Below are positions 30,323 through 39,357 of a stretch of DNA of 53,322 nucleotides, in pieces. The translations under genes were made by a program, and so were the position numbers. The notes beneath the pieces are model-generated. The model worked only from the letters and a program-made list of their open reading frames with translations, did not search any database and was not told the DNA's origin. This stretch comes from Oscillospiraceae bacterium (GTDB lineage: Bacteria > Bacillota > Clostridia > Oscillospirales > Oscillospiraceae), in NCBI GenBank assembly GCA_017548065.1, contig JAFYNQ010000041.1, positions 1-53,322 on the forward strand, read 5' to 3'. The stretch's first letter is position 1. Every line of letters begins with the position of its first letter.

Positions 30323-30386
30323 AATCCCCCGGTGGAAGGTTCGTGCCGAGGGATCCGTGCATAGGGTTTCTATGCAGAATTTTTTG
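30323..30386 (+). other. Two hairpins and a T-run upstream of the TIR-TM2 gene
   Basis: The first hairpin pairs ATCCC and CCGG near 30324 with CCG and GGGAT near 30346-30354. The second is a perfect TGCATAG/CTATGCA stem (30358-30364, 30370-30376) followed by GAATTTTTTG, like an intrinsic terminator. It lies upstream of the TIR-TM2 promoter, so it is not that gene's leader. It could end a short RNA, but I found no convincing promoter for one. Confidence 0.4.
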
Positions 30387-30414
30387 TGACGGCAGACTTT
30401 TGTTGAATACGGCA

Positions 30415-30443
30415 TTGTATTTCCCGTCGGGGTGTGTTATGAT
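30415..30443 (+). promoter_or_regulatory. Promoter of the TIR-TM2 gene
   Basis: TTGTAT at 30415-30420, 17 nt spacer, TATGAT at 30438-30443. An in-frame ATG at 30439 lies within the -10, which supports the start at 30475. Confidence 0.65.
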
Positions 30444-30474
30444 AAGCAAAAGAAAGAGGAGGCAAGCGTACACT

Positions 30475-31233
30475 ATGGAAACTAAGCCCTATGTTTTTAT
30501 CAGTTATGCCCACAAGGACAACGAATTGGTATACCCTGCCATTGCAGCGCTGCAGGCGCAGGGAGTCGCACTGTGGTATGACAACGGCATTGAAGCCGGA
30601 AGCGAATGGCCGGAATTTGTTGCGGAGAAGGTGATGAACTGCAGCAAGTTTGTGCTTTTTATCAGTGAGTCCTATTTGCAGTCCCAGAACTGCAAGCGGG
30701 AATTGAACTTTGCCATTGCCCGGAAGAAGGATATTCTGTCCATTCATTTGCATGATGTGGAGCTGTCCCCGGGTATGGAGATGCAGCTTGGTACATATCA
30801 GGCCATCTTCTGCAACCGCTTCCCCTCCAGAGAGAGCTTTTGCGAAGCTCTGCCCCAGGAGCCCTTCTTTACTCCTTGCAAGTCCCAGTCTACAACCACC
30901 CAAAACGTTTCCTTCAATCAGTCGGAGCCTGCAAATACCCAGGAGCCTCAGAAGACTGTTTTCTACAACCAGCCGACGTCTGCAAATACCGCCACGCCCC
31001 CTTCCAACACACAGCTGCCGAAGAAACGCAAGCTGGTCGCCATTCTCCTGGCATTTTTCCTTGGCGCTTTTGGCGCTCACAAATTCTACCTGAAGCAGCC
31101 CCTGTGGGGTATTTTGTACCTGGTTTTCTTCTGGACCTACATTCCTTCCATCCTTTCTATTATTGACTTCATCATTATGCTTTGCCAAAGCGATGAACAA
31201 TTTGCGGAAAAATATCACTGCATCGTTGAATAA
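30475..31233 (+). CDS. TIR domain fused to TM2 membrane domain
   Basis: 252 residues. Residues 4-115 form a bacterial TIR domain: YVFISYAHKDNE, LWYDNGIEAGSEW and CKREL, whose Glu76 fits the catalytic Glu of NAD-cleaving TIRs. A Gln/Asn/Thr/Pro-rich linker (about 125-180) has two related copies of an NQ-ANT segment. Residues 185-250 form a TM2 domain with two membrane helices: AILLAFFLGAFGAHKFYLKQ and the loop to IIDFIIMLC. The protein should be membrane-anchored with the TIR in the cytosol. TIR proteins act as NADase effectors or scaffolds in immunity. AGAGGAGG is 12 nt before the ATG. No Thoeris or CBASS partner is adjacent. Confidence 0.85.
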   Translation: METKPYVFISYAHKDNELVYPAIAALQAQGVALWYDNGIEAGSEWPEFVAEKVMNCSKFVLFISESYLQSQNCKRELNFAIARKKDILSIHLHDVELSPGMEMQLGTYQAIFCNRFPSRESFCEALPQEPFFTPCKSQSTTTQNVSFNQSEPANTQEPQKTVFYNQPTSANTATPPSNTQLPKKRKLVAILLAFFLGAFGAHKFYLKQPLWGILYLVFFWTYIPSILSIIDFIIMLCQSDEQFAEKYHCIVE

Positions 31234-35240: not shown

Positions 35241-38200
35241 TCAGAAGTTGAACGGATTTGACGAAGGCAGGAGCTCTTGTTTCTCAAGTTGTTCCTTTAG
35301 ATTATCTGGATTTAAAGTGGCTTGGTTTAAAATGTACTGCGCAATATGCTGGATCAGTTTTACCCGCAACTCCGCAAGAGATTGTACCCGGAAATCCATA
35401 TCTTTTCGAAGCGCTTCATCTTTCCAATGTGTTAGCTGATGATACAAGCAAGCAGTTTGCGCCTTATCGATGCAATCCAGCACATCCTTGAAGTGAAGTT
35501 CCTGTGGGGCAGCGCGGTATATTTCATATATCTTTGTGCAGCAGAGCAAAAGAGTCTTGATATCCTCCAGTAAATTGTGGTTTCCTGTCAGGATGTAATA
35601 ATCTTCATAGCCTCGCAACAAATTATATTTAAAATTCTGGTGCGCTTCAAATTGTGCGATTCCCAATTTAAAACGGATCCATGCCAAGTCTTTCCATTGG
35701 GCGTAAGTTCCAGCTCCCTCAAGAGCACTCTGTATATATCTCTCTGCGGAATAGAGATTCTTTGCCGCTTGCACCAGTTTTTCTTCTGTACCTTGTATAC
35801 TATCAAAATCTGCCATACGCACCAGAGACAATGCTAAGTTTCGAGCCGTATACGGAGACGGCTTGCGGTGGTGCTGTTCTTGGGAATAAGTATAACTTTC
35901 GTCCAGCATCTCCTGGATCTGCGCACGGAAAGCATCTTTTTCAGGACCATCCGGGATATCTCTATAGCTCCTGATATTCATGAGCAACAGCTGATCTAGA
36001 ATGCATATATAGGTATACCGACTGCATTCCTTCTGACGTTCCGGAGAAAGCTGTCGATAATACTCCAAAGCCGCTTGACAGATGGAAAGGCGCTTGCTGC
36101 GGGGTGAGGCTTTTGCCAACACCAACTGGAGATGCAGGAAGTGCTCGGCATTGAATACCCCCGGATTCTCCCGGATCATTTGTTGAATGCGAAGACAGCA
36201 AGCCCTCGCCTCGATATTTTTTCTATATTTATAGTAAAGGTTAGCTGCATGGTACAAGATTGCGTATTGAGACAGCAAGTAATCCGATTGTGCTCTACCG
36301 TCCTTATCAAGCAAGGCGGTCCACGCATCTAACGCCCGCAATGCATCTGCACATAGGTGGGATCCTTTATCATGATGGGCATCATCGGAAGATTCTCCGC
36401 AGTTGAGGGCCGCTTGCATGCCATTCAACGTCAGCAAACGATATCGGTCCACAGTTTCTTCCCGGCGCAACAGATCCTCCAGCCTTCCCTTATTGAAAAG
36501 AAAAATCTCGGAAAGCATATATATCGTATCCGGGTCCGGCGGATATTCCTTGGCAAAGGTGGTGTAGATGAACTGAGCCAATGTATCTCCGTGGTCTGTT
36601 GGCGGAAAATCGATAGCACGCTTCTTCGCTTTCAAAAGTAGTTCATAACACACTTTGGAAGCGATCTCCCAAGCAGGATCACCCGGCAAATAACGATCCA
36701 AATATCTGTGAAGCTCAGGCCAAGCCCCAATTTTCACACAGCAATACGGGATCTGCATCATAGCAACAGGATCTTGCTTCGGGAGAGTATACAGATAGTT
36801 CAGAAGCTGTCGACGATAGCGTTCACATACCTTGTTTTGTAGAAGTCCTTGGGGTATGCATTCCAGCGCAAAGGATATTACGCCATCGTTGGCGATGATC
36901 AGATAGCGTCTTAAGTATAAGATATATGACGCAAAATCCAGATCGTTCCATTTTTTTCCATCCCTGAGCAGAAGCGCTTTTAGATCTGACTCTCGTAAAC
37001 CCCGGTGCGCAACAGCTAAATAGATCATTGCCTCGTAGAAATCCGGGTTGTCGAATTGGCAAGCCCCATGGTGCAAAAGCATATTCGCCATTTCCGGAAT
37101 GCTGTCCGGACATTGCTCTATGATTTGCGATTGATAGAGAGAGATCGCATCCATACCACCTCCTAATTGGCGAATCTGATCGTAATCTTTTCGGCTAAAC
37201 ATACATAACCGCTGAATCAAAAAATGCCCGTAGAAAGATCGGCCTCGCGTCTTTTTTTCTACCAACGACAAAATGTCTGAGCTAAGTTCACGATGGAGTA
37301 TTTCCAATATATCCTGAGGGTTAGGAGCTCCTGGACAAGAAGCATAACCTTTTCTAAACCACAGTCGGCCGTGCCTTCCGCAGAGCAACATGTGGACCTT
37401 TCCGGAGAGCTTTGTCGGGATAGCATAAGCATAGTTTTGTTGTCCGCTGGAATCCAAAACATCGATATAAGGCAATGCAATTATCAAGGGCGGGGCGGAA
37501 CTCTGATTGTATTGCTCTACTAACCGATCCAACCGGTCTTGCCACCAACACAGCCGGTCAACCTCATTTTCATAAGGTGGGAGCGCAGTATCGTGCTCCA
37601 ATCCGATCAGATCCTCCATGCAGTATGCCAAATATTGCTGCAAATCACGAACCGTATTGCATAGATGCGACCTGTCACAAATAATAGGAAGGATGTTCCA
37701 TCCTTCAGCTTCCAATGCGCCTGTCAAAGAACAAACCGCTTCCAGCATATCAACCTCATCTTGAACATTAAACCAATATTCCATGAGAGATTCATTATAG
37801 TGCTGTAAAAGGCGCTGGCCAAAGCTGGGATAATATTGCTGCCGGATCAATTCTTTTTGCCAATGTTGATCCTTGATATAGGGCGATAGAGAAGCAGAAG
37901 CTTTCCAGCGGTAATCCATCATCTGGGAGATTTGGCTGATCAGCTCTTGCGCAAGTGCATCCATTCCGTTGAGGCACTGATGTTCCTGATCCCAAGAAAC
38001 GGTGTAGTAGTGTACTCGCTCCGGAACCAATGACAAAATGCGTGCCTTAAGTTGGTTCATACGCTCTTGCTGAAGTGCGTCCTCCGCAGCAAACTGGGCC
38101 GGGATCTCCCCTTGAAACTGCCGAATGAAGATTAGCGTATTATCCAAACGATCCTTATGAAGAAGTGGCCCACATTCCAATTCCAGAGCAGTTATACTCT

Positions 38201-38531
38201 GCCCCAAGCAGGAAGAAAGATCAATACCTATCTCCGACGCAATTTGGGAAACAAGTGTGGCATCGGGTATCCATCCATAACGCTCGCCCAGAAACAAAAG
38301 AAAAAAAGGTTTGCAACGCTCAACCTCTTGCAAACAAGTAGAAACGACTTTATAGGTACTGTGTTGCGTGTCTAACGAAACAGTATCAATCCCCCAACGC
38401 AAGTCACAAAAATGGATCGTTTCCCCATATTCTTGTGCAATACGGTTAATACTGGGAGCAATGAACTGCTGTAACAAGTCCCGCTCATCATCCATGTCCG
38501 CAAAAGTACTAGATACAAAAATGTTAGTCAT
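35241..38531 (-). CDS. DUF4062 / degenerate STAND ATPase / helical-repeat protein
   Basis: 1096 residues. Residues 1-170 are a DUF4062 domain, TIR-like in fold: IFVSSTFADMDDERDLL, FCDLRWGID, EVERCKPFFLLFLGERYGW. Residues 230-400 align in outline with a NACHT/STAND ATPase: a Walker B-like strand in PPLIIALPYIDVLDS and a sensor strand KVHMLLCGR. No GxxxxGK[ST] P-loop is found. HRGLRESDLKALLLRDGKKW and the next segment resemble the STAND winged helix. The C-terminal ~500 residues look like TPR-type helical repeats. The start at 38531 follows GAGGTG. The gene is AT-richer than its neighbours and sits beside tRNA-Leu, so transfer is likely. A defence or signalling scaffold is plausible. Confidence 0.82.
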   Translation of the reverse strand: MTNIFVSSTFADMDDERDLLQQFIAPSINRIAQEYGETIHFCDLRWGIDTVSLDTQHSTYKVVSTCLQEVERCKPFFLLFLGERYGWIPDATLVSQIASEIGIDLSSCLGQSITALELECGPLLHKDRLDNTLIFIRQFQGEIPAQFAAEDALQQERMNQLKARILSLVPERVHYYTVSWDQEHQCLNGMDALAQELISQISQMMDYRWKASASLSPYIKDQHWQKELIRQQYYPSFGQRLLQHYNESLMEYWFNVQDEVDMLEAVCSLTGALEAEGWNILPIICDRSHLCNTVRDLQQYLAYCMEDLIGLEHDTALPPYENEVDRLCWWQDRLDRLVEQYNQSSAPPLIIALPYIDVLDSSGQQNYAYAIPTKLSGKVHMLLCGRHGRLWFRKGYASCPGAPNPQDILEILHRELSSDILSLVEKKTRGRSFYGHFLIQRLCMFSRKDYDQIRQLGGGMDAISLYQSQIIEQCPDSIPEMANMLLHHGACQFDNPDFYEAMIYLAVAHRGLRESDLKALLLRDGKKWNDLDFASYILYLRRYLIIANDGVISFALECIPQGLLQNKVCERYRRQLLNYLYTLPKQDPVAMMQIPYCCVKIGAWPELHRYLDRYLPGDPAWEIASKVCYELLLKAKKRAIDFPPTDHGDTLAQFIYTTFAKEYPPDPDTIYMLSEIFLFNKGRLEDLLRREETVDRYRLLTLNGMQAALNCGESSDDAHHDKGSHLCADALRALDAWTALLDKDGRAQSDYLLSQYAILYHAANLYYKYRKNIEARACCLRIQQMIRENPGVFNAEHFLHLQLVLAKASPRSKRLSICQAALEYYRQLSPERQKECSRYTYICILDQLLLMNIRSYRDIPDGPEKDAFRAQIQEMLDESYTYSQEQHHRKPSPYTARNLALSLVRMADFDSIQGTEEKLVQAAKNLYSAERYIQSALEGAGTYAQWKDLAWIRFKLGIAQFEAHQNFKYNLLRGYEDYYILTGNHNLLEDIKTLLLCCTKIYEIYRAAPQELHFKDVLDCIDKAQTACLYHQLTHWKDEALRKDMDFRVQSLAELRVKLIQHIAQYILNQATLNPDNLKEQLEKQELLPSSNPFNF

Positions 38532-39102
38532 TGCTATTTTCACCTCAATTATTAGGCAGCCTTGAACAAATTGTAATATCCTTGTTGCAATGGGTATATA
38601 GCTGTTATTAATGATTATATCATATTAATCTCAAATTGCAAATTCTCGAGTCTATCATGTCTTGTTTTATTTTATTCATAGTAAATAAGGTGCACCTGCT
38701 TTTCGCTTTTGTCTGTACAACTCAACTATGACACAGGTCAGCTCTATTCACCATTCTTTTTTCCTAAGCGAGAGGTTTAAAACTGTCAGCTTGCTGATAG
38801 TTTAAAATCTCTCGTCTTCTAACCCATCATTATACAACCTACACTATTGCTTTTGCTTGCGCGTTTAGATAACGAATACCCTGGCTGTTTAACGAAATGC
38901 GGTATTTTAACGATAGGAATGCACTACCGGTTATTTTTGGATGGTGATTTCTGCAGTTTGGGGGTAGCAAATGCACAAGATATAGGCAACACAGGTGGGT
39001 AAATGCAACGCTAGGTTTGAGGAATCCTTGTGCTGTAAGGACTTTGGGGCATAAAAAACGATACCCTTTATGACACGATTGTATCACAAAGGGTAACGAT
39101 TA
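38532..39102. other. Non-coding AT-rich stretch
   Basis: It holds the promoter at 38614-38641, a long imperfect hairpin at 38769-38813 (CGAGAG arms, CTGTCAGC/GCTGATAG tip), and a small inverted repeat ATACCCTTT/AAAGGGTAA near 39061-39095. An 82-codon open frame on the - strand (38839-39087) resembles no family that I recognise and has no clear ribosome binding site. No integrase remnant was recognised. Confidence 0.6.
38614..38641 (-). promoter_or_regulatory. Promoter of the DUF4062/STAND-like gene
   Basis: Read leftward: TTGCAA (38641-38636), 16 nt spacer, perfect TATAAT (38619-38614), about 80 bp before the start codon. Confidence 0.75.
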
Positions 39103-39120
39103 TGGTGCCGCTGACCGGAC
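39103..39120 (-). repeat. 18 bp copy of the tRNA-Leu 3' end (att-like)
   Basis: The 18 bases at 39103-39120 (TGGTGCCGCTGACCGGAC) are identical to 39271-39288, which is the CCA end, acceptor and part of the T-arm of tRNA-Leu. The copies are 168 bp apart in the same orientation. This is the pattern left when an element integrates at a tRNA 3' end. Confidence 0.75.
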
Positions 39121-39235: not shown

Positions 39236-39270
39236 AAAAAAGCAGATACCCGGATGGGTATCTGCTTTTT
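39236..39270 (-). terminator. Terminator of tRNA-Leu
   Basis: AAAAAAGCAGATACCC, loop GGAT, GGGTATCTGCTTTTTT. It is a perfect stem directly downstream of the tRNA CCA end, with T-runs in both directions. Confidence 0.92.
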
Positions 39271-39357
39271 TGGTGCCGCTGACCGGACTCGAACCGGTAC
39301 GGATTTTACTCCAAGGGATTTTAAGTCCCTGGTGTCTACCTATTCCACCACAGCGGC
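39271..39357 (-). tRNA. tRNA-Leu (anticodon UAA)
   Basis: Read leftward from 39357: acceptor GCCGCTG pairs with CAGCGGC at 39281-39275, the discriminator is A, and CCA is encoded (39273-39271). The anticodon arm is GGGA-CTTAAAA-TCCC, giving anticodon TAA. A variable arm (CTTGGAGTAAAATCCGT region) and the T-loop GGTTCGAGTCC are present, as in class II tRNAs. It reads UUA and, by wobble, UUG codons. Confidence 0.97.

Follow-up and report, generated by a model that had tools for sequence, protein, structure and literature searches.

Results

The gene and its domains

The window analysed here is a stretch of 53,322 nucleotides from a gut-type Oscillospiraceae bacterium (contig JAFYNQ010000041.1 of assembly GCA_017548065.1), and its minus strand carries a large gene (35241..38531) whose product joins an N-terminal DUF4062 domain to a NACHT-derived module without the usual nucleotide contacts and to C-terminal helical repeats. 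The open frame is uninterrupted over 1100 codons (35241–38543, minus strand). The ATG at 38531 is the likely true start because it follows GAGGTG, a ribosome-binding site read by eye, so that the start given in an earlier note on this DNA is probably correct and the protein has 1096 amino acids; residues are numbered throughout from the GTG at 38543 as residue 1, which makes the ATG residue 5. The gene is AT-richer than its neighbours, as the note had observed, with a GC content of 45.7% compared to 53.4% for the window, and a third-position GC (GC3) of 0.475 compared to 0.66–0.73 in five nearby genes.

On the joint evidence of sequence and structure prediction, the order of domains and the NACHT ancestry of the middle are established, and both agree with what had been proposed at the outset. 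All features of the gene lie on the minus strand. Residues 5–215 (37899..38531) form the DUF4062 domain, a TIR-like domain of NADase type that matches Pfam PF13271 with 49.7 bits (E 4.2e-13; cut-off 24.7). It is followed by a NACHT-derived nucleotide-binding core (residues 218–410; 37314..37892) and by a helical domain and winged helix (residues 411–612; 36708..37313), both recognised by profile and by fold, and finally by TPR-like helical repeats (residues 613–1100; 35244..36707), the presumed sensor. The homology of the NACHT, helical and winged-helix parts and the predicted fold of the module place the protein among the NACHTs, and the idea that the central region might not derive from an NTPase at all did not hold when examined by both means. 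When the whole protein was submitted to Foldseek the first match was Avs3 (E 2.1e-7, with a TM-score of only 0.16). We folded the module alone, since TPR chains filled the VIA-align list in the whole-protein fold search; its nucleotide-binding, helical and winged-helix arrangement is common to Avs3, MalT, 6mfv and Apaf-1, with matches to ORC far below those to Apaf-1 and MalT.

General family searches see little of this. Apart from DUF4062, Pfam gave only two sub-threshold matches to the protein (E 0.22 and 0.5) and no NTPase family, PADLOC gave no family at E≤1 and NCBIfam nothing at E≤1. Receptors of this kind can thus escape family searches, none of these three having detected the NTPase-derived module; even across the family, the NACHT profile PF05729 recovers only 58 of 85 members.

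The DUF4062 domain retains its predicted NADase motif, as judged by alignment and profile comparison. A preprint of May 2026 (PMC13174449) describes DUF4062 as a TIR-like NADase: in the bacterial anti-phage system Swarozyc (KpSwz) it is reported to deplete NAD+, and in human TEP1 to be active as well. A profile of 66 relatives, the window protein included, matches the TIR-like chain of TEP1 (11gz) with E 2.3e-44 and aligns Glu121, the probable catalytic residue within SITALE (38181..38183), to the last Glu of the TEP1 segment SVTEME. All 84 aligned rows share both Glu121 and Arg88, the latter a putative active-site residue. If the 220-residue chain 11gz spans residues 894–1113, Glu121 would correspond to the catalytic E1008 of TEP1; this is arithmetic with no stated numbering behind it, and equating Glu121 and Arg88 with E1008 and R976 depends on counting residues along the chain, as does the finding that Ala15 stands at the position of R908. 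A set of 26 tabulated DUF4062 positions was chosen from columns invariant in an alignment containing the window protein, and the fair measure of conservation is therefore the 40 of 50 conserved columns that it keeps.

Loss of the nucleotide contacts

The earlier note had reported that Walker A is missing, and this is confirmed: no GxxxxGK[ST] occurs at the P-loop position, where relatives carry GxxGxGK[ST] and the protein has VQDEVDML (residues 260–267; 37743..37766). This segment faces motifs such as GATGSGKS without gaps in one alignment, while a second places gaps there. In the whole-protein model a strand (257–260) passes through a two-residue turn into a helix (263–279), from which we conclude that no phosphate loop is left; its former site holds three acidic residues. 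A frameshifted P-loop was considered and ruled out, since the other two frames of the same strand contain no P-loop and do contain stops.

The remaining contacts are lost as well. The note's Walker B-like strand is present (residues 353–361; 37461..37487), as are the landmarks of the fold and Asp361, but the note needs correcting in that the Mg-binding Asp is replaced by Pro358 and the later nucleotide contacts have not survived. In the winged helix the His of the DFxH motif of relatives, which we take to be a nucleotide contact, has become Leu560 (36858..36878). In the helical domain the PLYL of relatives reads SFYG, with Ser436 for the Pro (37221..37244), a residue that touches adenine in NLRs (nucleotide-binding, leucine-rich-repeat receptors) according to passages of PMC7583971. 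The protein thus keeps none of the four contact sites, namely Walker A, Walker B Asp, helical-domain Pro and winged-helix His, and with its STAND fold and eroded Walker A and B it is an inactive STAND (iSTAND) in the wide sense. It retains 10 of 16 conserved columns in the helical domain and winged helix compared to two of nine in the core, where the P-loop itself makes up five of the nine. The core is acidic (net charge −9 over 193 residues), and the whole module, at −10 compared to a mean of −12.8 for intact relatives, is no more basic than its kin. With these replacements the module very probably cannot bind nucleotide as such modules normally do.

Recurrent loss among relatives

The set of relatives comprised the best 80 of at least 543 confirmed loci, selected for their similarity to the window, together with loci that whole-genome searches supplied. 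It contained 89 matched open reading frames, eight of which were omitted from the alignment because they were short or did not extend to the start. K[ST] is absent at the P-loop column in 11 of 91 aligned rows, the window's included, which is not a natural frequency, as relatives were picked by likeness to the window. The 11 rows have all lost the winged-helix His, eight of them the Walker B Asp and four the helical-domain Pro; among the 80 rows with K[ST], the Asp is kept in 78, the Pro in 68 and the His in 61, and 58 of them have all four sites, 11 have three and another 11 have two, with four alignment gaps scored as losses. For one of the 11, L057, the change in the P-loop is only Lys to Arg.

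Comparison of these sequences establishes that Walker A has been lost recurrently. Trees were built without the Walker motif columns, the second also without those of the winged-helix His and without three long-branch rows (L072_1206, L078_571 and L055_5231). On the first tree (84 rows) the P-loop label needs five changes of state, four of them forced by supported branches, and on the second (88 rows) supported branches force all five; from the intact outgroup rows we read these changes as losses rather than gains. A common origin of all 11 was rejected as a single clade by the approximately unbiased test (p-AU 1e-57). On both trees the window's own loss falls separately from the other lineages; a clade of the window and L054, both on long branches, was not rejected (p-AU 0.37). 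L054 (9010–13692) encodes a second protein with none of the four sites, and its former P-loop, VSQDEHSLDML, shares the letters QDE and DML with that of the window. On this reading of the tree, all five lineages have lost Walker A and the winged-helix His and mostly the Walker B Asp, the window and L054 the helical-domain Pro too, and all five keep the NADase effector motif and the NACHT, helical and winged-helix frame.

Six of the P-loop-less rows form one clade (SH-aLRT branch support 97 on the first tree and 95 on the second). Their altered loop has a single shape, in which one additional residue precedes the Lys or Arg, and they have lost the Walker B Asp in common, so the P-loop-less state was probably inherited within the clade. 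Two of its members, L050 and L066, give ratios of nonsynonymous to synonymous substitution (dN/dS) of 0.10 for the NACHT-like region (dS 1.9) and 0.08 for DUF4062 (dS 1.2), rough values by which this pair is under purifying selection. Four gene pairs were tested, and this is the one usable P-loop-less pair, L093/L066 being saturated; in the NACHT region the intact pair L021/L037 has a ratio of 0.27, and the other intact pair, L058/L018, is saturated. The sister rows of the clade (L018, L053, L058 and L068) have lost the His with the P-loop still present, which suggests that the sites erode stepwise. A sign test for linked loss of His and P-loop on independent pairs gave a median p of 0.25, with too few pairs to reach significance. 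As a group, P-loop-less rows have over-diverged cores (rank test p 4e-7, rows not being independent), the window ranking 13th lowest of 90.

Whether P-loop loss is shared by homologues, as the note had proposed to ask, thus has a divided answer: it recurs in the family, and the window's nearest kin among the matches listed are intact Lachnospiraceae proteins of 31–35% identity. Within the window's own genus a homologue was found at E≤1e-5 in four of 136 genomes, its own counted, and three homologues there carry an intact Walker A. Four loci removed from the alignment by a motif and length filter (L129, L147, L153 and L155) were viewed separately, and Walker A is intact in the first three, which are all those whose frames reach it. 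L129 (6771–10079), from the same genus, departs from the usual Walker B with ILLSD, and its DUF4062 reads SSTE in place of SSTF. Scans with the single protein found no relative in genome contigs or viral contigs; the alignment-based scan found relatives in genome contigs and none in viral contigs, plasmid records gave two matches covering DUF4062 only, and phage records gave none.

Comparison with known systems

For NLR-like and STAND receptors, nucleotide exchange is regarded as the core switch. Avs3, MalT and 6mfv, STAND receptors whose sensors are helical repeats, share the arrangement of the module, as does Apaf-1; these proteins possess P-loops, unlike the window protein. At its N-terminus the protein resembles KpSwz and human TEP1, which have a TIR-like domain with a conserved catalytic motif, and DUF4062 adjoins NACHT as it does in TEP1, NWD1, NWD2 and NPHP3 (PMC13174449). 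KpSwz, however, lacks a NACHT and carries a short auxiliary domain of HTH/winged type, where the window protein has a NACHT-derived module and a TPR-like C-terminus; lacking the DUF4062 and short HTH/winged domain combination that binds phage portal, the gene is not classed as Swarozyc. The human DUF4062 NACHTs are described as ATPases, of which TEP1 alone of the four hydrolyses NAD+ (PMC13174449), whereas the module here has no nucleotide contacts.

Inactive STAND modules are also found elsewhere. Passages of PMC7159879 and PMC8195603 describe iSTAND and iSTAND2 in MoxR-vWA ternary systems, some with an N-terminal TIR, and parts of PMC12839542 describe BrxB, BrxF and PglW as inactive STANDs of BREX. 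Like the window protein, these modules have a STAND fold in which the NTP motifs are inactive or eroded; they belong to multi-gene systems, whereas the window gene stands alone: neither MoxR nor vWA was matched by Pfam among 13 flanking proteins, the rest of the genome not having been searched, so the gene does not fall among the ternary systems in the narrow sense within that neighbourhood. The module also differs in origin, deriving from DUF4062-NACHT receptors whose nearest members have Walker A. The nucleotide-binding domain of the plant NLRs Pb1 and RXL is called regressed in sections of PMC8559963, by which they are possibly genuine immune receptors though no P-loop NTPase domain is annotated; they are NB-ARC proteins of eukaryotes, and their effector and sensor domains are different ones.

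We did not find P-loop-less DUF4062-NACHT receptors or their repeated origin in the open-access literature searched. The main text of PMC13174449 has "Walker" nowhere and "P-loop" once, in a reference title, and passages of PMC12169576, PMC10907252 and PMC12258605 hold nothing on P-loop-less bacterial NACHTs. Inactive STAND modules and regressed NLRs were already known, and P-loop-less DUF4062-NACHT receptors with repeated origin are new within that literature.

Interpretation

We lean towards reading the gene as a stand-alone, probably horizontally acquired, NAD+-destroying immune receptor with a pseudo-NTPase middle. The C-terminal repeats would recognise a ligand of phage or stress origin; the NACHT-derived middle would keep the protein closed and relay assembly without ATP; and the DUF4062 domain would destroy NAD+ once several copies come together, killing the infected cell. 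Assembly templated by the ligand would take the place of nucleotide exchange, by analogy with KpSwz, which has no ATPase. The parts of this reading differ in strength. That the gene is functional we consider likely, and a role in NAD+-depleting defence, with hydrolysis predicted from the domain, fairly probable. Phage sensing by the protein we infer, and nucleotide-free activation templated by ligand, resting on that analogy, is put forward tentatively. Relatives have lost the residues that hold ATP separately, and such receptors may therefore work without an ATP switch; the broader proposal, that DUF4062-NACHT receptors in five lineages of the tree, the window's included, repeatedly become free of the nucleotide switch and work by ligand-templated assembly alone, is likewise possible rather than probable. 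The earlier note's view of a non-switching protein derived from a STAND stands with the profile match, the fold match and the loss of all four contact sites; the scaffold or decoy that it had raised among possible roles gives way, as the likeliest role, to an effector-bearing receptor, because DUF4062 is an effector of NADase type. A natural series of receptors with several losses of the ATP site, together with intact kin, makes the role of that site directly testable, and the two kinds can be compared for ligand-induced assembly, NADase output and defence.

Several observations weigh against this reading. The nearest kin among the matches listed have an intact Walker A, so the loss in the window's lineage may be recent, and those matches include no P-loop-less protein close to it. 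The protein sits on a long end branch (1.69), and it keeps 40 of 50 DUF4062 columns, fewer than any of the ten further P-loop-less rows (44–48). From the nearest kin its core has diverged little more than their cores have from one another (ratio of core to DUF4062 identity 0.56, compared to a mean of 0.61 and a range of 0.49–0.69 among kin). Moreover, the 13 flanking proteins scanned look metabolic or general, one of them without any family, except for the product of a TIR-TM2 gene.

Some of these points are what one would expect if the gene were a decaying copy, acquired horizontally as a DUF4062-NACHT gene, deprived of its ATP switch, without present function and on course to be lost. The intact nearest kin, which the note had held would make this a decayed copy, fit such a history, as do the long branch, the lowest DUF4062 conservation among the 11 P-loop-less rows and the single copy with its patchy distribution. 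The frame is nonetheless open over 1100 codons with a start and a ribosome-binding site, Glu121 and Arg88 are kept, and uniform decay would hardly replace four contact sites while sparing 40 of 50 DUF4062 columns; the five changes of state and the purifying selection on a P-loop-less pair of relatives also speak against it, and we consider decay unlikely. Retention of the catalytic Glu, which a decoy would not need, also tells against a decoy or dampener, a protein that would bind phage proteins or active homologues and send no signal. A lost switch would suit such a role, but in the 88.9% complete genome no active homologue exceeds the cut-offs, and this alternative is extremely improbable.

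A sensor that depends on a partner would bind ligand and serve as the template on which an active STAND protein assembles, the part that NAIP5 plays for NLRC4; mutations in the P-loop of NAIP5 suggested that ATP binding is dispensable for assembly (passages of PMC7583971). A pairing of this kind is conceivable at locus L055, where an intact DUF4062-NACHT gene is followed, 0.66 kb downstream and beyond one small intervening gene, by a P-loop-less one. In the host genome, the gene is the sole DUF4062 match above the cut-off (two weaker ones have 14.7 and 13.5 bits), and no NACHT match exceeds its cut-off (42 lie below, best E 5e-4), in an assembly 88.9% complete and with a profile, PF05729, that finds 58 of 85 members. 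As the protein also retains its own effector domain, such dependence is decidedly unlikely. Excerpts of PMC8195603 propose that inactive STAND modules retain an ancestral role in binding nucleic acid, and a nucleic-acid receptor built on such a module was considered accordingly. The acidic core, the acidic residues where phosphates would bind, a module no more basic than that of its kin and the low rank of the ORC matches make it very unlikely. None of these alternatives is preferred to a receptor that destroys NAD+.

Neighbouring genes and loci of relatives

About 4 kb from the gene, on the plus strand (window 30343–31233), one protein carries a TIR_2 domain followed by a TM2 membrane domain. 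It resembles the ThsB models of PADLOC (E 1.4e-8; among flanking genes PADLOC was run on this one alone) and is, by its domains, a candidate membrane-bound TIR effector. Upstream of the DUF4062 gene, at about 38773–38830, a long imperfect hairpin (gagaggttt...aaatctctc) was seen by eye; the repeat finder listed none there and Rfam gave no match. A 21-nt stretch from the 3' end of tRNA-Leu recurs as a copy (95%) 168 bases away, on the side of the AT-rich gene (window 39100–39120 and 39268–39288), and may be left over from an integration event at the tRNA. Four loci were compared for an insertion site; two share the hydrolase side only and two the operon side only, and no empty site is definable.

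In the loci of relatives, the tandem at L055 (5303–12270) consists of the intact gene and the P-loop-less one with a DUF1963-like gene between them, possibly an active/inactive receptor pair. A DUF1963-like gene of about 186 amino acids accompanies DUF4062-NACHT genes of one branch of the tree at L018, L055, L058, L060 and L066, both P-loop-less and intact. The same two neighbour genes (71% and 90% identical) occur near P-loop-less receptors at L066 (12383–14847) and L084 (1703–4173), as if these receptors, which are distant in the tree, sat at a common insertion hotspot. A TIR_2 protein (two stretches pass) is encoded at L084 (4418–5407), about 1.2 kb upstream of the P-loop-less DUF4062-NACHT gene and in the same direction.
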